64,000 nt of DNA from Halogeometricum sp. S1BR25-6 (GTDB lineage: Archaea > Halobacteriota > Halobacteria > Halobacteriales > Haloferacaceae), in contig NZ_JAMQOP010000001.1 of NCBI RefSeq assembly GCF_031624495.1, positions 186,001 to 250,000 on the forward strand, given 5' to 3'. Every line of letters begins with the position of its first letter. Positions within the stretch are counted from its first letter, which is position 1. A program made the translations under genes and the position numbers. The notes beneath the pieces are model-generated. The model had not been told where the DNA came from. It saw only the letters and a list, made by a program, of their open reading frames with translations, and searched no databases. Of this stretch, positions 1,923 through 60,846 are shown piece after piece.

Positions 1923-4900
1923 GTGCACGAGGACGACGAACGGTACTTCGCGGGCATCGAGGACCGTCTCGACGAGGCGTTCGACCTCGCGCGCGCGGCG
2001 AAAGAGCAGGGGCGCGACCCGCAACCCGAAGTGGAGATTCCGGTCGCCAAGGACATGGCCGACCGCGTGGAGAACATCCTCGGCATCCCGGACGTCGCCG
2101 AACGCGTCCGCGAGTTGGAGGGGGAGATGTCCCGCGAGGAGGCCGCCCTCGAACTCGTCAACGACTTCGTTGAGGGCAGCGTCGGCGACTACGACTCCCG
2201 CGCGGGGAAGGTCGAGGGGGCGGTGCGGACCGCCGTCGCCCTTCTCACCGAGGGCGTCGTCGCCGCGCCGATAGAAGGAATCGACCGCGTGGAGATTCTG
2301 GAGAACGACGACGGCACCGAGTTCGTCAACGTCTACTACGCCGGCCCGATTCGCTCCGCGGGCGGGACGGCGCAGGCGCTCTCGGTGCTCGTCGCCGACT
2401 TCGCCCGGGCGCTCCTCGGCATCGACGAGTACAAGGCCAGAGAGGTCGAGACCGAACGCTACGCCGAGGAGGTCGCACTCTACGATAAGGAGACGGGCCT
2501 CCAGTACTCGCCGAAGGACAAGGAGACGAAGTTCATCGCCGAGCACATGCCCATCATGCTCGACGGCGAGGCGACGGGCGACGAGGAGGTGTCGGGCTTT
2601 CGCGACTTGGAGCGCGTCGACACCAACTCCGCCCGCGGCGGCATGTGTCTCGTCCTCGCGGAGGGTATCGCGCTCAAGGCGCCGAAGATACAGCGCTACA
2701 CGCGCCAACTCGACGAGGTGGACTGGCCGTGGCTTCAGGACCTCATCGACGGCACCTACTACGACGACGGCGGCGACGAGACCGAGGACGAAGACGCCGC
2801 CGAGGCCGAATCCGAGGCGGAAGTCGAGGAAGACGGAGCGGACGCGGACGAGGCGGCCGACCCGGAATCACCGGAACCGACCGGCCCCGCGCGCGTCGAA
2901 CCCGCGACGAAGTACCTGCGGGACCTCATCGCCGGCCGACCCGTCTTCGGCCATCCGAGCGAACCGGGCGGCTTTCGACTCAGATACGGTCGCTCCCGGA
3001 ACCACGGCTTCGCCACGGCCGGCGTCCACCCGGCGACGATGCACCTCGTCGACGACTTCCTCGCGACGGGGACGCAGATAAAGACCGAGCGACCCGGGAA
3101 GGCCGGCGGCGTCATCCCGGTCGACTCCATCCAGGGGCCGACGGTCAGACTCGCCAACGGCGACGTGCGCCGCATCGACGACCCCGAAGAGGCGCTCGAA
3201 GTCCGAAACGGCGTCGAGGAGATTCTCGACCTCGGGGAGTACCTCGTCAACTTCGGCGAGTTCGTCGAGAACAACCACCCGCTCGCGCCGGCCTCGTACG
3301 TCTACGAGTGGTGGGTGCAGGAGTTCGAGTCCGCGGGCGGACCCGTCCAGGCCCTCGAAGACGACCCGGGCGTCGAACTCGACGACCCGGACCCCGAGGA
3401 GGCGTTCGCGTGGGCCACCGAGTACGACTGCCACCTCCACCCGACGTACACCTACCTCTGGCACGACATCTCGGTGACGGAGTTCGAGACGCTCGCCAAC
3501 GCCGCCGCGTCGGGACGAATCGCCGACGTGGAGGCCGACGGCGGGATGGTCGTCCGCGCGGACTCCGACGCCGCCCCCGCGGACGGCGTCCTCGAACTGG
3601 ACCGAACGGAGGAACTGACCGGGACGCTCGAACGCCTCCTCGTCGAACACACCCGGACCGAGGAGACACTCCGCGTGCCGGACTGGCGGCTTCTCGTCCG
3701 GTCGCTCGGTCTCTCCGCGTCGCTCGAGAAGGAGTGGACCGACCTCTCCCCCGAGGCGCGGGAGTGGGACGGCGGCGACAACGCCGTGAAGGCGGTCAAC
3801 GACGTCGCCCCCTTCGACGTGCGCGAACGCGCGCCGACCCGCATCGGCAATCGGATGGGTCGCCCGGAGAAATCGGAGTCGCGCGACCTCTCGCCGGCGG
3901 TCCACACGCTGTTTCCCATCACGGAGATGGGAGGGAACCAGCGCGACGTGGGCGAGGCGGCCCGCGCCAGAAACGACCGCGGCCAGCGCGGGAACGTCGA
4001 CGTCCTCGTCGGCGACCGAGTCTGCCCGGACTGCGGCGCGCACACCTACAAGAACCGCTGTCCCGACTGCGAGGTCCACACCGAACCCCACTTCGAGTGC
4101 GAGGACTGCGGTACGGTCCTCGAACCCGACGAATCCGGCCGCGTCTACTGTGAGCGCTGCGAACGCGAGGTAGAGAGCGTCGACTGGTTCTCCGTCGACC
4201 TGGCGACCGAACTCCGCTCGGCGCTGGAGTCCGTCGGCGAACGCGAGTCCTCCTACCCCATCCTGAAGGGCGTGAAGGGGCTCACCTCGGCGAACAAAAC
4301 GCCCGAACCGCTCGAAAAAGGCATTCTTCGAGCTAAACACGGCGTCTCCTCGTTCAAGGACGGAACCGTCCGTTACGACATGACCGACCTGCCGGTCACG
4401 TCGGTCCGACCCGCCGAACTCGACGTCACCGTCGACCACTTCCTCGAACTCGGCTACGAGACGGACATCGACGGCGAACCCCTGCGCTTCGACGACCAAC
4501 TGGTCGAACTGAAAGTGCAGGACATCGTGCTCTCGGACGGCGCCGCGGAACACATGCTCAAGACGGCGGACTTCGTCGACGACCTCTTACAGAAGTTCTA
4601 CGGGTTGGAGCCGTTCTATCAGGTTGAGGAACGGGACGAACTCATCGGCGAACTCGTCTTCGGGATGGCTCCGCACACCTCCGCCGCCGTCGTGGGACGG
4701 GTGGTCGGCTTCACGTCTGCGGCCGTCGGCTACGCGCATCCGTACTTTCACGCGGCCAAACGGCGGAACTGTGACGGAGACGAGGACTGCGTCATGCTCC
4801 TCATGGACGGCCTCCTGAACTTCTCGAAGGAGTACCTCCCCGACAAACGGGGCGGACAGATGGACGCGCCCCTCGTGATGTCCTCGCGCATCGACCCTTC

Positions 4901-5522
4901 CGAAATCGACGACGAGGCGCACAACATGGATATCGTGCGTCGGTATCCCGAGTCGTTCTACGAGGCCACCTTGGAAATGGCCGACCCCGGCGAGGTGGAG
5001 GACCGCATCAAGATGGGCGAGGACACCCTCGGCACCGACGAGGAGTACCGCGGCTTCGAGCACACCCACGATACCACCGACATCGCCCTCGGTCCGGACC
5101 TCTCGGCGTACAAGACGCTCGGGTCGATGATGGAGAAGATGGACGCCCAGTTGGAACTCGCGCGGAAACTCCACGCCGTCGACGAGACGGACGTGGCCGA
5201 ACGCGTCATCGAGTACCACTTCCTCCCGGACCTCATCGGCAACCTCCGCGCGTTCTCCAGACAGGAGACGCGCTGTCTCGACTGCGGGGAGAAATACCGG
5301 AGAATGCCGCTCACCGGCGACTGCCGGGAGTGCGGCGGACGGGTGAACCTCACCGTCCACCAGGGCTCCGTGAACAAGTACATGGACACCGCGATTCAGG
5401 TGGCCGAGGAGTTCGACTGCCGGCCGTACACGAAACAGCGGCTCGAAGTCCTCGAAAAGAGTCTGGAGAGCGTCTTCGAGAACGACAAGAACAAGGCCTC
5501 GAAGTTGGGCGACTTCATGTAA
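1923..5522 (+). CDS. polC: DNA polymerase D large subunit DP2
   Basis: This is the catalytic subunit of the archaeal replicative polymerase PolD, 1199 aa. The N-terminus 'DMADRVENILGIPDVAERV' and the active-site segment 'RRNCDGDEDCVMLLMDGL' are typical; Asp951 and Asp953 match the metal-binding aspartates of the family. Zinc-ribbon cysteines occur at about residues 701-760 and again at about 1118-1140. A highly acidic low-complexity insert spans about residues 280-322, a halophile feature. The reading frame is continuous, so no intein interrupts the gene, although haloarchaeal polD2 often carries one. The start is GTG, three bases after the PPC gene; the first residues MHEDDERYF fit the family. 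The small subunit (DP1) is not in the window. Confidence 0.97.
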   Translation: MHEDDERYFAGIEDRLDEAFDLARAAKEQGRDPQPEVEIPVAKDMADRVENILGIPDVAERVRELEGEMSREEAALELVNDFVEGSVGDYDSRAGKVEGAVRTAVALLTEGVVAAPIEGIDRVEILENDDGTEFVNVYYAGPIRSAGGTAQALSVLVADFARALLGIDEYKAREVETERYAEEVALYDKETGLQYSPKDKETKFIAEHMPIMLDGEATGDEEVSGFRDLERVDTNSARGGMCLVLAEGIALKAPKIQRYTRQLDEVDWPWLQDLIDGTYYDDGGDETEDEDAAEAESEAEVEEDGADADEAADPESPEPTGPARVEPATKYLRDLIAGRPVFGHPSEPGGFRLRYGRSRNHGFATAGVHPATMHLVDDFLATGTQIKTERPGKAGGVIPVDSIQGPTVRLANGDVRRIDDPEEALEVRNGVEEILDLGEYLVNFGEFVENNHPLAPASYVYEWWVQEFESAGGPVQALEDDPGVELDDPDPEEAFAWATEYDCHLHPTYTYLWHDISVTEFETLANAAASGRIADVEADGGMVVRADSDAAPADGVLELDRTEELTGTLERLLVEHTRTEETLRVPDWRLLVRSLGLSASLEKEWTDLSPEAREWDGGDNAVKAVNDVAPFDVRERAPTRIGNRMGRPEKSESRDLSPAVHTLFPITEMGGNQRDVGEAARARNDRGQRGNVDVLVGDRVCPDCGAHTYKNRCPDCEVHTEPHFECEDCGTVLEPDESGRVYCERCEREVESVDWFSVDLATELRSALESVGERESSYPILKGVKGLTSANKTPEPLEKGILRAKHGVSSFKDGTVRYDMTDLPVTSVRPAELDVTVDHFLELGYETDIDGEPLRFDDQLVELKVQDIVLSDGAAEHMLKTADFVDDLLQKFYGLEPFYQVEERDELIGELVFGMAPHTSAAVVGRVVGFTSAAVGYAHPYFHAAKRRNCDGDEDCVMLLMDGLLNFSKEYLPDKRGGQMDAPLVMSSRIDPSEIDDEAHNMDIVRRYPESFYEATLEMADPGEVEDRIKMGEDTLGTDEEYRGFEHTHDTTDIALGPDLSAYKTLGSMMEKMDAQLELARKLHAVDETDVAERVIEYHFLPDLIGNLRAFSRQETRCLDCGEKYRRMPLTGDCRECGGRVNLTVHQGSVNKYMDTAIQVAEEFDCRPYTKQRLEVLEKSLESVFENDKNKASKLGDFM

Positions 5523-5523
5523 G

Positions 5524-5679
5524 CCCACCTTTTTGCAGATTTGGATGCACCGAAGGCGCACCCGCATCGTCATCAGAACGCGAAGCGTTCTGATTGGCTA
5601 ACGAGACGCTTCGCGTCTCGTGAACGCAAAAAACTGGACCAAAAAGATTCCGCGAGGCTCGCGTTCGCTCGCCTCGCGG
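5524..5679. repeat. Modular palindromic intergenic element, copy 1
   Basis: This element starts two bases after the polD2 stop. It opens with CCCACC and TTTTTGC (5524-5536) and has the matching GCAAAAA at 5626-5632, followed by CTGGACCA (5634-5641). Inside are two perfect hairpins: 10-bp arms 5572-5581/5585-5594 (arm ATCAGAACGC, loop GAA) and 9-bp arms 5601-5609/5613-5621 (arm ACGAGACGC, loop TTC). A third perfect hairpin follows with 9-bp arms 5650-5658/5671-5679 (CCGCGAGGC). Copy 2 at 60565-60716 has the same flanking words and shares the CAGAACGC arm. It may act as a polD2 terminator, but the modular build suggests a dispersed repeat family. Confidence 0.8.
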
Positions 5680-5731
5680 TACGACTTCTTCGTTCTCTCC
5701 GTACTACCCCGCACTGAACTCGTCGCCGACA

Positions 5732-22105: not shown

Positions 22106-22195
22106 GTTCTCCGTCGCGTCGTTGGACCGCTTGGCTCTTTTCGTCTCCGGTCCGGCGGACGAGCGGGTGCCGCGAGAAAAGCAGGTCGCCCGCTT

Positions 22196-22564
22196 CTACA
22201 CCGCGTCGCGGCCGGTCTTTCCGGTCCGAATCTGGACGGCGCTGTCGACGGGGGTGACGAACACCTTCCCGTCGCCGGGTTCGCCCGTGTGCGCACCGTC
22301 CGCGATGGCGTCGACGACGTCCTCGGCCGGGATGTCGGCGACGACGCACTCTATCTTGACTTTCTGGTGGAGGTCGACCGTGTACTCCTCGCCGCGCCAC
22401 TGGCCCTTCTTTGCAGGTTGGGAACCGCGGCCGGAGACGTTCGTCACCGTCAGCGACGGCGCGCCGGCCTCCGCCAGCGAGCGTTTCACGTCCGACAACT
22501 TGTCCGGTCGGACGACGGCCGTTACCATCTTGATCTCTCCGTCGTTCGGCAGTTCTTCGCTCAT
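22196..22564 (-). CDS. glnK: P-II nitrogen regulatory protein (copy 1)
   Basis: The protein is 122 aa, normal length plus about eight N-terminal residues. The T-loop has '[14 protein letters not shown]' with Tyr61 at the position of the uridylylated tyrosine in bacteria; the B-loop region '[15 protein letters not shown]' is intact. P-II trimers bind ATP/ADP and 2-oxoglutarate and plug the Amt channel. The gene starts three bases after the stop of amt copy 1, so it pairs with that channel. The second copy at 24315 is closely similar. Confidence 0.94.
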
Positions 22565-22567
22565 AGT

Positions 22568-24001
22568 TCAGTTGTCTCTATCATCCGTGGTAGTATTTTG
22601 CACGCCGCTGTAACTCCCGCCGTCGGACATCCGGTCCGACGAGGGTCGCGAACTCCCGGTTCGCTCACCGCCGTCCATCCGGACGCCGCCGTCCACCCGG
22701 ACGGCCTCGTCCCGGCCGCCGAACTCGGGGTAAGTATCGACGCCGTGTTCGGAGGCGTCGAGTCCTTCGAGTTCGTGCTCGCGGCTGACGCGCGTCTCGC
22801 CCGCGGCGCGGAACGCGCCGAAGACGGCCGCGGTGGCCGCGAACGTCCACGCGGCGATGACGGCGACGCCGACGACCTGCGGGACGAGCAGTTCGATGAA
22901 GCCGGCGTTCCCGGCCCAGAGGTCGGTCGCGAAGACGGGGTACAGGAGCGCCCCGAGGACGCCCGCGGAGCCGTGAACCGGGAAGACGGCGCAGACGTCG
23001 TCTATCTTCAGCCGCTTCTCGATGAACTCGAAGACGATGGGCAGTTGCGCGCCGCCGACGAGGCCGACGGCGATGGCGCCCGGCCAGACGATGGCGTCCG
23101 CGATGGACGTGATGGCGACGAGGCCGGCGAGGACGCCGTTGGCGACGTACAGCGTGTCGACCTTCCCGGTCTTTATCATCGAGAGGCCGCCCGCGCCGAT
23201 GGCGCCCGCGGCCATGCCGAGGGTGGTGACGAGGGCGACGCGGCCGACGTAGGCGAACGACCCAAGTGTGACGCCGTCGGCCTCGGAGTACGCCAGCGGC
23301 GAGGCGGCGGTGCCGACGTTGAAGCCGTACCAGCCGAACGCGAGGATGAGCGTTCCGAGGACGGCGAACGTCATCGAGTGACCGGGGATGACGTTCACGG
23401 AGCCGTCGTCGTTGTAGCGGTCCATCCGCGGGCCGATTATCCACGCGGCCGTGAGACCGGCGATGCCGCCCATCGCGTGGACGATGACGCCGCCGGCGAA
23501 GTCGTGGAAGCCGAGGACCGAGAGGAAGCCGCCGGCCCAGGTGAAGCCGACGACGACGGGGTAGATGACCCCGGCGAGCAGAATCGTGTAGGTGATGTAC
23601 GCGCGGAGTTTCGCGCGGCCGGCGACGGCGCCGGAGACGATGGTCGCGGCGGTCATGGCGAACACGGCCCCGAAGAGCCAGTTCACCCACGCCCCCGCCG
23701 CGCCCTCCGCGGGCATGTAGAGGTCGGTGAACGCGCCGAGGACGTCGGCGCCGCCGCCCCCGGTGGCGCCCCCGACGATGGTCGAGAGGGCGGCTCCGAG
23801 GAGGAAGTAGACCGTCACCCCGACGGACCACGTCAGGAGGTTCTTAGTCAACTGATTGGCGACGTTCTTCGAGCGGACCTGCCCCGCCTCCAGCATGGCG
23901 AAGCCGGCGTGCATGAAGAAGATGAGGAAGGTGACGGTGAGGACCCACACCATGTTCACCCCCTCGACGACTGTCGCGAGGTCGGACTGCAGTGGTGTCA
24001 C
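22568..24001 (-). CDS. amt: Ammonium transporter (copy 1)
   Basis: The Amt/Rh-family channel has 477 aa and 11 predicted membrane helices. Typical segments are 'FLIFFMHAGFAMLEAGQVRSK', 'FDFAGGVIVHAMGGIAGL' (written here 'HDFAGGVIVHAMGG', with the pore His) and 'VFPVHGSAGVLGALL' (second pore His). The C-terminal tail, about 80 residues after 'GETRVSREHELEGLDASEHG', is cytoplasmic and acidic, the site where GlnK would bind. It forms an amt-glnK pair with the downstream gene; the upstream 313-base gap holds the promoter region. Confidence 0.94.
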   Translation of the reverse strand: MTPLQSDLATVVEGVNMVWVLTVTFLIFFMHAGFAMLEAGQVRSKNVANQLTKNLLTWSVGVTVYFLLGAALSTIVGGATGGGGADVLGAFTDLYMPAEGAAGAWVNWLFGAVFAMTAATIVSGAVAGRAKLRAYITYTILLAGVIYPVVVGFTWAGGFLSVLGFHDFAGGVIVHAMGGIAGLTAAWIIGPRMDRYNDDGSVNVIPGHSMTFAVLGTLILAFGWYGFNVGTAASPLAYSEADGVTLGSFAYVGRVALVTTLGMAAGAIGAGGLSMIKTGKVDTLYVANGVLAGLVAITSIADAIVWPGAIAVGLVGGAQLPIVFEFIEKRLKIDDVCAVFPVHGSAGVLGALLYPVFATDLWAGNAGFIELLVPQVVGVAVIAAWTFAATAAVFGAFRAAGETRVSREHELEGLDASEHGVDTYPEFGGRDEAVRVDGGVRMDGGERTGSSRPSSDRMSDGGSYSGVQNTTTDDRDN

Positions 24002-24196
24002 GTGACGATACCTCCGTTCGATGGTGCTCCAGGCAAGCTTGGACGTTCGTTCATCAGTAGTCGTATTCGCGTTGGTTCGTGACGCGAAGCGTGGAAGATT
24101 CTATCTGGTTACACACGTATAAGGATAATCGTTGACAAACGTCTATTCGATGGGAGTATTATCGACATTCGTCCGCTCTACAATCGGATAATAGCT

Positions 24197-24240: not shown

Positions 24241-24314
24241 TTATCTGACGCGCGTTTTATTTAAAATATGACAGACAGACGAACGAGGAGACTCCACGGG
24301 GCCGCGGCGCGCGC

Positions 24315-24674
24315 CTACACCGCGTCCAGTCCGTTCTTGCCGGTCCGCACCTGCACGGCGCTGTCGACGGGCATGACGAACACCTTCCCGTCTCCGGGTT
24401 CGCCCGTGTGGGCGGCGTCACGGATGGCCTCGACGACGTCCTCGGCCGGGATGTCCGCGATGAAGCACTCTATCTTGACTTTCTGGTGGAGGTCGACCGT
24501 GTACTCCTCGCCGCGCCACTGGCCCTTCTTGGCGGGTTGGGAGCCGCGGCCGGAGACGTTCGTCACCGTCAGCGACGGCGCGCCGACCTCCGCGAGACCG
24601 CGCTTCACGTCCGCGAGCTTGTCCGGTCGGATGACCGCCATCACCATCTTGATTTCGCCGTCGTTCGCGCTCAT
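24315..24674 (-). CDS. glnK: P-II nitrogen regulatory protein (copy 2)
   Basis: The protein is 119 aa. T-loop '[14 protein letters not shown]' (Tyr58) is identical to copy 1, as is most of the C-terminal half. Differences cluster at the N-terminus and at scattered positions (for example 'VVADI' in copy 1 against 'FIADI' here). The start ATG overlaps the stop of amt copy 2 by four bases. Two P-II proteins can form mixed trimers and may respond to different channels. Confidence 0.94.
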
Positions 24675-26038
24675 CGCTCCTCACCGCCCGTGACCCGTTC
24701 GCCGCCGTCGGTGCGCGCTGAGGATCCGCCGTCGGCTATCGGGCTCTCGCCCTCCCCGACGAACTCGGGGTACACCGAGACGCCGTGTTCGCCGAGGTCC
24801 AGCCCCTCGGCCTCCTCGCCTTCCGTGACGCGGAGTCCGAGAGTCACCTTGATGGCGTAGAGGACGACGCCCGAGGCGAGCGCGGTCCACGCCGCGATGA
24901 CGACGACGCCGAGCACCTGCAGGATGAACTGGTTCACCGCGAAACCGCCGACGGCGAAGACGGGGATGAGCGCCGTGCCCACCGCGCCGGCGACGCCGTG
25001 CACCGCGAAGACGCCGCAGACGTCGTCGACCTTCAGCGTGTCGACGGTGTAGCGGAACGCGGGCAGGACGAGGAAGCCGCCGAGGCCGCCGAGGATGGCG
25101 CCGCCCCACCACGTGACGTGGGGGACCGCACCGGTAACGGCCACGAGTCCCGCCAGCAGACCGTTGGCGGTCCAGAGCGGGTCGGGCTTGCCCTGGTAGT
25201 ACGAGGACGTCACCATCGCCATGGCGCCGCCGGCGCTCATGCCGAGGGTGGTGACGAGGGCGACGCGACCGAGGGCGTCGCCCATGAACGTCAGCCCGCC
25301 GTTGTCGCCGACGGCGAGGATAGTCGCCTGCGTGCCGACGTTGAAGCCGTACCAGCCGAACGCGAGGATGAACGTCCCGAGAACGGCGAGCAGCATCGAG
25401 TGACCCGGAATGGGCTGGCTGTTACCGCTGCTGTCGTAGCGACCCTTCCGCGCCCCCACCAACTTCGCGGCGACGAGACCGGCCACCCCACCGCACATGT
25501 GGACGACCGTCGCGCCCGCGAAGTCGAGGTAGCCGGCCCCGAGTGCGGCCCCGAGGAAGCCGCCGGACGAGAGAAGTCCGCCGCCCCACGTGAAGCCGAC
25601 GACGACGGGGTAGATGACCGCCGTCATCAGAATGGTGAACAGCACGTACGCGCGGAACTCCATGCGCTCCGCCACGGCGCCGGAGACGATGGTCGCGGCG
25701 GTCATGGCGAACACCGCGCCGAACAGCCATCCGATCCAGTCACCGGGGTTGTTGATGTACGCGAACGCGCTCGCGACGTCGAACGTCCCCGACGAGGTGA
25801 GGCCACCGATTATCGTCGCCACGGCCGCGCCGACGACGAAGTACGTGAGCGTGCCGAGAATCCAGTCGTTCATGTTCTTCATCAGCACGTTCCCCACGTT
25901 CTTCGCGCGGACCTGCCCCGCCTCCAAGAGGGCGAAGCCCGGCTGCATGAAGAAGATGAGGAACGTCACGACCAACACCCAGACGGTGTTGACCCCCGAG
26001 GCGACCGCCGTGGCGTCGACCTGGAGGGGGAAACTCAT
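24671..26038 (-). CDS. amt: Ammonium transporter (copy 2)
   Basis: The channel is 455 aa with 11 predicted helices. Pore histidines are in '[15 protein letters not shown]' and '[16 protein letters not shown]'. The cytoplasmic tail ends with '[21 protein letters not shown]', a motif shared with copy 1, followed by about 30 residues that differ. The start is the ATG at 26038; an eight-residue upstream extension is unsupported. Copy 1 differs at many positions throughout, so the duplication is old. Confidence 0.94.
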
Positions 26039-26348
26039 ACGTTCACCCCAGACGATGGACAATCGTCAACGATTCTGCCGTAATCCACTCCGTTTGTGTT
26101 CGAGTTCACGCGAGAATGTCAGGACAATGTAGTACATAAGTGTGCGTGTCCTATGTGTCCATTTACTGGCTCTATTATTCGACGGACGGCTGCTTTACCG
26201 TACAATCTAATGCATATAAGGTCATTTAGCGTCCGGTTCGACGGCAATATCGGCGATATAGCTGGACGAACGTTCACGCAAAAACCGCCGGAAAAAGAGG
26301 CTCAGTTCGCGCGCGCTCGACTCATCGCTCTTGTGGGCGGCATCTCGC
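26039..26348. promoter_or_regulatory. AT-rich regulatory region before amt copy 2
   Basis: This 310-base gap contains the shared minus-strand GACCTTATAT (26223-26214) and the 14-base relative GGACAATCGTCAAC (26057-26070), which overlaps a 6-bp inverted repeat AATCGT-CA-ACGATT (26061-26074) only 23 bases before the start codon. The rest, about 26080-26300, is AT-rich with no open frame of note. The last 60 bases approach the hemB stop. Confidence 0.55.
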
Positions 26349-59534: not shown

Positions 59535-60500
59535 ATGGACGTCGGAGACTGCGCCACTACCTGCCGGAACATCCTCGACGAGGTGTCCCGCGCCGTCGTC
59601 GCCGACCGCGCGGTTCTGCGGTCGATACTGTTGGGCTACCTCTCGCGGGGGCACGTCCTGTTGGAGGACGTCCCCGGGACGGGCAAGACGCTCACCGCGC
59701 GGTCGTTCGCCACCGCGCTGGGCCTCTCCGTCTCGCGCGTGCAGTTCACGCCCGACCTGCTCCCTTCGGACGTGACGGGCACGCACGTGTTCAACGAGCG
59801 GACCCGCGAGTTCGAGTTCCAGAAGGGGCCGCTGTTCGCCAACGTCGTGTTGGCCGACGAGATAAACCGCGCCTCGCCGAAGACGCAGGCCGCTCTCCTC
59901 GAAGCGATGGAGGAGGGGCAGGTCACCGTCGACGGCGACACGCACCCCCTACCGGACCCGTTCTTCGTCATCGCCACGCAGAACCCCGTCGAACAGGAGG
60001 GGACGTTCGAGTTACCCGAGGCGCAGAAGGACCGCTTCGTCGTGAAGACCAGCCTCGGCTTCCCGGACGAGGCGGGCGAACTCGAACTCATCAACCGGCG
60101 CGCGGAGCGCCACCAGCAGTCGCCGTCGGCCTCGCGCGTCTGCGACGAGCGCACGGCGACCGAGATTCGGAACGCCCCCGAACGGGTGCACGTCGAACCC
60201 GACGTGCGGCAGTACCTCGTCGACGTCGCCCGCGCGACTCGCGAGGACCGCCGCGTCCGCGAGGGCGTCTCGCCGCGCGCCACGCAGCGACTGTTCGAGG
60301 CGGCGCGCGCCCTCGCCGCGATTCAGAGCCGGGGGTTCGTGACGCCCGACGACGTGAACGCCGTCTCGAAACCCGTGCTGGCCCACAGACTCATCCTGAC
60401 GCCCGACGCGCGCGTCGGGCAGGTGGACTCGCGGGACGTCGTCGACGACATCCTCGACGACCTCACGGTTCCCTCGGTGGACGTGCGGCAGCGGGCTTGA
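59535..60500 (+). CDS. MoxR-family AAA ATPase
   Basis: The protein is 321 aa. Walker A 'LEDVPGTGKTLTARSFAT' is at about residues 41-58 and Walker B is 'NVVLADEINRASPKTQAALL'. The C-terminal lid has 'VREGVSPRATQRLFEAARAL'. MoxR ATPases act as chaperones for VWA/DUF58 proteins; the DUF58 gene lies 1.1 kb away on the opposite strand. The two are convergent, so each has its own promoter. Confidence 0.93.
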   Translation: MDVGDCATTCRNILDEVSRAVVADRAVLRSILLGYLSRGHVLLEDVPGTGKTLTARSFATALGLSVSRVQFTPDLLPSDVTGTHVFNERTREFEFQKGPLFANVVLADEINRASPKTQAALLEAMEEGQVTVDGDTHPLPDPFFVIATQNPVEQEGTFELPEAQKDRFVVKTSLGFPDEAGELELINRRAERHQQSPSASRVCDERTATEIRNAPERVHVEPDVRQYLVDVARATREDRRVREGVSPRATQRLFEAARALAAIQSRGFVTPDDVNAVSKPVLAHRLILTPDARVGQVDSRDVVDDILDDLTVPSVDVRQRA

Positions 60501-60846
60501 GGGAGTCGCGAGTAGCTTACTTCCCACGAAGTCAGAGCTGAAACGGCTACTCGGTAGAGACGTGCCCACCCACCTTTTGCCGAGGGCTGGCGGAGCCAGC
60601 CCTCGGCAAAAGCTGGACCATCGCCAGAAATCTTCGATTTCTGGCTGTTCAGCCAGAACGCTGCGCGTTCTGGCGACAAAAGCACTCCTCCCTCGCCTCA
60701 GGCGGCTTCGCCGCCTTCCGCTCGGTCGTCGGCCGCTCGCTCACTCCGTTCGCTCGCGGTGAGTGGCTCCCCTGTTCGGAGCGATTCCACTTCCCTACCA
60801 AAATACGCCGAGGACGACGGCCCCGGAGTTTCGGTACGACGCCGAA
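60501..60846. other. Convergent intergenic region with palindromes, no gene
   Basis: This 346-base region separates the convergent MoxR and DUF7519-like genes. It contains the second palindromic element (60565-60716). The remainder (60501-60564 and 60717-60846) holds no gene that I can see. Confidence 0.6.
60565..60716. repeat. Modular palindromic intergenic element, copy 2
   Basis: It opens with CCCACC (60565-60570, repeated) and TTTTGC, whose T-run belongs to a perfect 17-bp stem (60575-60591 with 60595-60611, loop GGA) closing in GCAAAA, followed by CTGGACCA (60613-60620). Three further perfect hairpins follow: 10-bp arms 60623-60632/60636-60645, 10-bp arms 60652-60661/60665-60674 (arm GCCAGAACGC, loop TGC), and 7-bp arms 60700-60706/60710-60716 (loop TTC). 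The CAGAACGC arm and the outer words match copy 1. As it sits between convergent genes, bidirectional termination is a possible role. Confidence 0.8.

Follow-up and report, generated by a model that had tools for sequence, protein, structure and literature searches.

The window, that is, the whole stretch of 64,000 nucleotides from Halogeometricum sp. S1BR25-6 that was analyzed, contains polD2, the gene for the large subunit of DNA polymerase D. Its C-terminal part matches 80 haloarchaeal loci, the best being that of Halogeometricum pallidum (96% identity). The stop codon lies at 5520–5522, and a hairpin-rich element (copy 1) begins 2 nt further on; a second element (copy 2) begins 69 nt past the stop codon at 60500. 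The features are as follows.

1923–5522, forward strand: polD2, DNA polymerase D large subunit (from the ORF list).
5525–5685, forward strand: copy 1, entire element (cmsearch with covariance model R1, 66.5 bits, E = 1.5e-11, in a search of 606 kb).
5525–5536, forward strand: 5' arm of the outer stem P1, CCACC-TTTTT-GC, with the T5 tract at 5530–5534 (arm covariation over 43 distinct rows).
5538–5568, forward strand: inner hairpin of the family (P2 region), imperfect in copy 1 (RNA folding; 35 distinct perfect arm pairs among the copies).
5572–5625, forward strand: inserted module M1, ATCAGAACGC-GAA-GCGTTCTGAT / TGGCTAA / CGAGACGC-TTC-GCGTCTCG / TGAAC (none of the four other species in the genus has it at polD2; a similar module occurs at loci L220 and L222 of genome G003).
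5626–5638, forward strand: 3' arm of P1, GC-A6-C-TGG plus A, with T6 on the opposite strand.
5634–5645, forward strand: linker CTGGACCA-A5, reading TTTTTGGTCCAG on the opposite strand (ACC or ATC, then A4–A5, in 87 parsed copies).
5650–5679, forward strand: hairpin B, CCGCGAGGC...GCCTCGCGG, then TACGAC at 5680–5685 (common to most copies).
60570–60681, forward strand: copy 2, CCACC-T4-GCC, hairpin, GGC-A4-GCTGGACCA, then M2, then AAAA.
60621–60677, forward strand: inserted twin-hairpin module M2, TCGCCAGAAATC-TTC-GATTTCTGGC-TGTTCA-GCCAGAACGC-TGC-GCGTTCTGGCGAC.

An earlier note, made from the letters of the window, had described a palindromic element at 5524–5679 in which short words bracket two perfect hairpins and a third perfect hairpin follows. 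All of these parts were found in place: the words CCCACC (5524–5529), T5GC (5530–5536), GC-A6 (5626–5633) and CTGGACCA (5634–5641), and the perfect hairpins at 5572–5594 (loop GAA), 5602–5620 (loop TTC) and 5650–5679. The location was thus right, but the 3' boundary lies further out, at about 5685. Both bracketed hairpins are real, but a fourth, imperfect one at about 5538–5568 had been overlooked; it is the normal inner hairpin of the family, and the two perfect ones constitute the additional insert M1. Copy 2 (R1 score 30.3 bits, E = 8.6e-4 in the same 606 kb) does carry the same words, though with T4 in place of T5. The arm CAGAACGC...GCGTTCTG is shared by the two copies as the note had it, but not as the same hairpin of the same module, since it precedes CTGGACCA in copy 1 (within M1) and comes after it in copy 2 (within M2). 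CCCACCTTTTT occurred twice with at most one mismatch, against 0.13 expected, and CTGGACCA four times, against 0.87 expected; the folding z-score of copy 1 was −6.05, with 0 of 200 shuffled sequences equally stable. These word counts and the folding score, together with the model scores, rule out chance.

The proposal that the two copies belong to a dispersed repeat family proved correct. Pattern searches recovered repeated same-strand pairs of CCACCTTTTTGC and GCAAAAA(G/T)CTGGACCA, 40–100 bases apart, in the genome, which excludes the case of just two copies. Using the covariance model R1, which was built from a MAFFT alignment of 11 copies and is biased to Halogeometricum, we obtained 23 matches at E < 1 in the genome of the window itself (best E = 7e-20), so that the family has at least 20 copies there, and 11–21 matches per genome in the four other species of the genus. 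Matches were found in at least 159 of 194 Halobacteria genomes and at least 59 of 65 genera, these being lower bounds limited by the 20 candidates scored per genome and by the E-value cut-offs; 35 of the 194 genomes yielded no R1 match among the 20 candidates scored. Copy number ranged from 0 to 42 per genome. Only one of 84 other genomes of the phylum had a match, with a score at the threshold. In Rfam 15, copy 1 had no match at E ≤ 1 and the window none at gathering level; five other loci yielded only one tRNA and one chance match. The phage collection contained no match to the family and the plasmids a single partial one (Halobellus limi); a pattern match in a viral contig (L313) was rejected as an AT-rich chance match in which the hairpin is absent. 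The cassette family is specific to Halobacteria, with a length of about 95–130 nt (about 110 bases in summary) that increases where modules are inserted. We found no earlier description of it in open-access papers and regard it as novel, although it may have been described elsewhere in the literature.

The core consists, in this order, of an outer stem N1N2A(C/G)C-T5-GC...GC-A5-(G/T)C-TN2'N1' enclosing a variable inner hairpin, a linker ACC-A5, and a hairpin ending in GGTACGAC; it has no terminal inverted repeat. The form N1N2A(C/G)C-T5-xx-[inner part]-xx-A5-(G/T)C-TN2'N1'-A(C/T)C-A4, followed by hairpin B, fits 87 parsed copies. The base of the first hairpin is an inverted repeat, presenting T5 on the sense strand and T5-GGTCCAG-x-T5 on the opposite one. 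The outer triplets are complementary in 84 of the 87 parsed copies, in the combinations CCA/TGG, CGA/TCG, GGA/TCC, GAA/TTC and GCA/TGC; elements whose first base falls within the stop codon (TA|GGACC, T|GAAGC) have G as N1, with C as the partner. The outer-stem covariation score over 43 distinct rows was 0.253, against 0.067 in shuffled alignments (0 of 500 reached it), and dropped to 0.02–0.05 when the register of the partner was slid. The inner hairpin showed 35 distinct perfect arm pairs with a mean of 7.8 bp, compared with 4.1 in shuffles, and folding z-scores of the elements ranged from −2.7 to −6.1. Two-sided changes in the outer stem numbered 56 and one-sided G-U changes three; the G-U content of inner stems was 3.5–4.9%, versus 7.3% in tRNA stems of the same loci. 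The small number of G-U changes and the low G-U content lean towards, rather than prove, base pairing in DNA or a process that corrects palindromes. In one subfamily (L206, L230, L231 and L269; CCACCTTTCTTTTCGGGGGTCC...CCCCCGGAAGAAAGCTGGACCAAAGAA) the T tract is interrupted, with a compensating change in the A tract, giving TTTCTT/AAGAAA where others have T5/A5. This subfamily stands in for the usual type at two orthologous sites.

The varying unit within this scaffold is a module made of one pair of hairpins. M1 (copy 1, L220 and L222) sits at the 3' side of the inner hairpin, and M2 (copy 2, L157, L164 and L232) between ACCA and AAAA. The centre of M2 has exactly three occurrences in the genome, and the presence of M2 differs at orthologous sites; because all three lie within core elements, M2 was no longer regarded as an independent dispersed repeat. 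M3 is a clean presence/absence difference of 53 bp between two species at one orthologous site, present in G004 and lacking in G000, with nearly identical element sequence on either side. The earlier note had seen arms conserved as pairs with a varying number of hairpins and had suggested module exchange. Both points agree with our results, in that twin-hairpin modules are swapped or inserted as units.

The position after polD2 holds for copy 1, but the family as a whole adjoins gene 3' ends and promoter borders generally. Among 111 collected copies, 62 had a sense stop at −5 to +2 of the element start (ORFs of at least 60 codons), compared with 3.4% of random positions. Gene calls were also made by a home-made codon model trained on the loci, so that the exact counts may shift: with a sense gene upstream, 60 of 81 copies started at −2 to +5 and none at 6–15, and with a divergent gene upstream, 13 of 30 started 29–44 nt from its start codon, which puts them at the upstream border of the core promoter. 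After stops the orientation is single and the spacing 0–5 nt. Some copies are preceded by tRNA genes, with direct abutment in L196, L199 and L246. The 5' flank, whether a stop codon, a tRNA end or a promoter, contained no shared word or conserved target. Convergent contexts were moderately enriched (41 of 110 copies, versus 14 of 66 gene pairs of the window); an initial view that the elements lie strictly between convergent genes was abandoned once improved gene calls came in. Because this enrichment is only moderate, a strictly two-sided role is not needed everywhere.

Several loci contain a composite between a tRNA gene and the element (L146 1625–1814, corresponding to G000:C1 about 1599482–1599671; L163, L243, L244 and L247). 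It is composed of spacer hairpins, an inverted T-arm copy (e.g., GGATTTGAATCAGGGAGCG...GCGACCGAGGTTCAAATCC) and the 3' end of the tRNA copied in direct orientation, and it recurs in another family (G026); the same tRNA-Arg as in the composite abuts the element directly in G001 (L199).

Comparison of orthologous sites revealed both persistence and change. The element follows polD2 in all five Halogeometricum-type genomes, and the same place is occupied in some species of Halobellus, Haloparvum, Halarchaeum, Natrinema and others; it is empty in many other species and holds a reversed element in Haloferax and Halogranum. The synteny comparison suggested in the earlier note thus reveals presence/absence variation rather than an identical structure at every polD2 locus. 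Many sites of the genome studied are common to the genus; at several, one to three relatives lack the element. Twelve site groups are common to several genomes, and several of them extend to another genus; because many sites are old and shared among species and genera, the family is not a simple recent transposon. Elements at orthologous sites had an identity of 0.729, compared with 0.70 between paralogues; the coding DNA upstream was mostly 81–97% identical. Orthologous elements are hardly more alike than unrelated ones, which indicates that sites persist and their contents turn over. The sequences are close to random between orthologous sites, and in some genomes the copies have been homogenized. 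In Haloparvum (G018) the copies are 0.885 alike among themselves and 0.63 to those of Halogeometricum. Two tested Haloparvum sites are shared with Halogeometricum, yet the elements there are of the Haloparvum type, and at five others every relative whose flank could be located lacks the element. From these identities and occupancies, the history of the family would be one of concerted turnover with some new copies. A search for clean empty sites of the core that align across both borders gave none, the downstream spacer having diverged too far.

Duplicated gene ends accompany some elements. In Haloferax (L068, L070, L081, L137, L138, L139 and L142) and Halogranum (L075), about 34 final bases of polD2 recur downstream in company with a reversed element, forming one to three tandem units. 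Halorubrum sp. CSM-61 (L093) and Halorubrum cibi (L074), in which polD2 lacks the element, have different tandem repeats or short duplications behind that gene, as if its 3' end were a duplication hot spot. At L156 and L159 (G000:C1:435415 and 579276), an element that is reversed with respect to the adjacent gene lies between the intact end of that gene and a 36–70 bp duplicate of it. A reading of such duplicated 3' ends as target-site duplications was rejected, as flanking repeats occur at just four of 23 copies in the genome studied; two of the four belong to tRNA composites, and at Haloferax polD2 the repeats form a tandem array.

Several known systems resemble the family in part. The PATEs and SMR-A/B of Haloquadratum walsbyi (PMC3119063) are likewise short (52–110 bp), transposase-free palindromic repeats of haloarchaea, and one of these families inserts in palindromes of another, which can be compared with M1–M3 within the core. 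However, SMRs are bounded by terminal inverted repeats and use PATEs as targets, and neither holds for the core: SMR-A, of about 110 bp with prominent terminal inverted repeats, inserts in PATE/IS605 palindromes, whereas the core adjoins genes and not transposons. PATE ends resemble those of IS605 and include a well-conserved oligonucleotide, unlike the core with its wordless 5' flank. PATEs are further defined by near-terminal palindromes without terminal inverted repeats, a transposase gene or target duplication; the copies of the genome studied have two hairpins and no coding capacity, and 19 of 23 show no flanking repeats, which would suit a PATE. In contrast to both PATEs and SMRs, the core is flush with gene ends, class-wide and present at shared sites. 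Bacterial REP/BIME/REPIN sequences (PMC3116915, PMC2817692) are also multicopy extragenic palindromes with twin hairpins, but the core is longer, has T5/A5 tracts in the stem base and keeps a fixed spacing from the stop codon. Bacterial bidirectional or uptake-sequence terminators (PMC1852404) share the inverted repeat, the T tracts on two strands, the position near gene ends and sometimes an origin from a dispersed repeat. They are built as A-tract, hairpin and T-tract, whereas the sense strand here reads T-tract, hairpin and A-tract; given this reversed topology, the element is not a member of that class. A bacterial intrinsic terminator, with a GC hairpin and then a sense T tract, was likewise rejected, as T5 precedes the hairpin and A5 follows it. 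Few hairpin terminators were found in archaea in that study, and hairpins were reported not to be over-represented after archaeal genes (PMC1852404). The element does have a T stretch shortly past the gene, the feature of archaeal T-tract terminators. Those of Haloferax (PMC7237163) are similarly intergenic, with T5 followed by C or GC, but they are bare T tracts and no dispersed structured element has been described with them.

Based on these results, we propose that the element is a structured terminator/insulator cassette with T5 on each strand, renewed by cassette replacement. We infer termination from sequence and place the probability of this reading at about 0.58. It is favored because T5 is a proven terminator in Haloferax, where T5C terminates 95% of transcripts (PMC7237163), because T5 is otherwise rare after stops (of the 39 window genes followed by a gap of 30 or more, two have it within 20 nt, and polD2 is one of these two), and because the opposite strand carries T5-GGTCCAG-x-T5. 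Most copies have T5 at about +7 to +12 relative to the stop, and it is present in all 87 parsed ones, for which the parse requires it. A polymerase leaving the upstream gene would stop at T5 a few bases past the stop codon, and one arriving from the other side would stop at either T5 tract of the opposite strand; the cassette would thus close the transcription unit from both sides, leaving the hairpin between. Cassettes would be swapped whole through recombination between copies (concerted evolution), accompanied by occasional new copies, as in Haloparvum, and by losses. Against the terminator reading we count the 35 of 194 unmatched genomes, the broken T tract of one subfamily and the reversed polD2 element of Haloferax and Halogranum. 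Moreover, haloarchaeal 3' UTRs have a median length of 97 nt (PMC7237163); a T5 right behind the stop is therefore not generally required, and the flush position calls for a further cause. Several empty orthologous sites have no T5 nearby, and the cassette is therefore dispensable there.

Among the alternatives, a selfish, non-autonomous mobile element akin to PATEs, SMRs and REPINs is unlikely, though the most probable of them. It would be mobilized in trans through its hairpins, with incidental T tracts and with a placement by stops, tRNA ends and promoters that reflects target choice or selection. The presence/absence at orthologous sites, the nearly identical Haloparvum copies at sites empty in four relatives, the variable copy number and the twin hairpins without terminal inverted repeats, which resemble PATEs (PMC3119063), all speak for such an element. 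Nevertheless, no conserved target word precedes it, smaller contigs gave few matches (beside the one partial plasmid match and none in viruses or phages), sites are common to several species and genera, and an exact spacing of 0–5 nt in a single orientation after stops is unusual among known mobile repeats. We consider it improbable that the family is a 3'-UTR RNA element whose fold shields or processes the 3' ends of mRNAs or serves as a protein-binding site. Its sense orientation directly past stop codons, its covariation and its folding z-scores suit this role. However, T5 precedes the hairpin, so much of the element should stay untranscribed from the sense gene, the ratio of two-sided to G-U changes suits DNA pairing equally, and copies at divergent promoters would not be 3' UTRs at all.

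A slightly poorer candidate still is a DNA-level structure, a cruciform or protein-binding palindrome that would act in recombination or in the control of supercoiling, as has been suggested for bacterial BIMEs. The paired replacement of perfect palindromic arms, the low G-U content and the location between transcription units agree with it; taken alone it leaves the constant T5 tracts and the flush stop-codon position unexplained. That chance GC-rich palindromes and a common T-rich end account for the element is barely credible. Palindromes are abundant in haloarchaeal intergenic DNA, yet the E-values of the model search, the outer-stem covariation, the fixed order of the words and the near absence of the family from the other genomes of the phylum exclude this explanation.

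The terminator/insulator reading can be extended, tentatively and with less than even odds, to a mobile terminator: a transcription-closing cassette that may have been copied, in a single orientation, to new places immediately downstream of stop codons and tRNA genes, and renewed whole, throughout the history of Halobacteria. If so, gene ends in this class would be made by an exchangeable repeat and not by local evolution, and this would be a case of a dispersed repeat supplying a basic signal of gene expression. For the question of how archaea define transcript ends, and what part structure may play, a class-wide, strongly covarying element at stop codons, tRNA ends and promoter edges offers hundreds of natural test cases, and species with and without it at the same gene permit direct comparison. 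Nearly randomized sequence at fixed sites also provides a route to the study of concerted evolution in polyploid archaea.

Elsewhere in the window, 22188–24082 and 24307–26083 are adjacent paralogous stretches with DNA repeats 75–90% identical (D1, D5, D8 and D15), probably the result of a tandem gene duplication.
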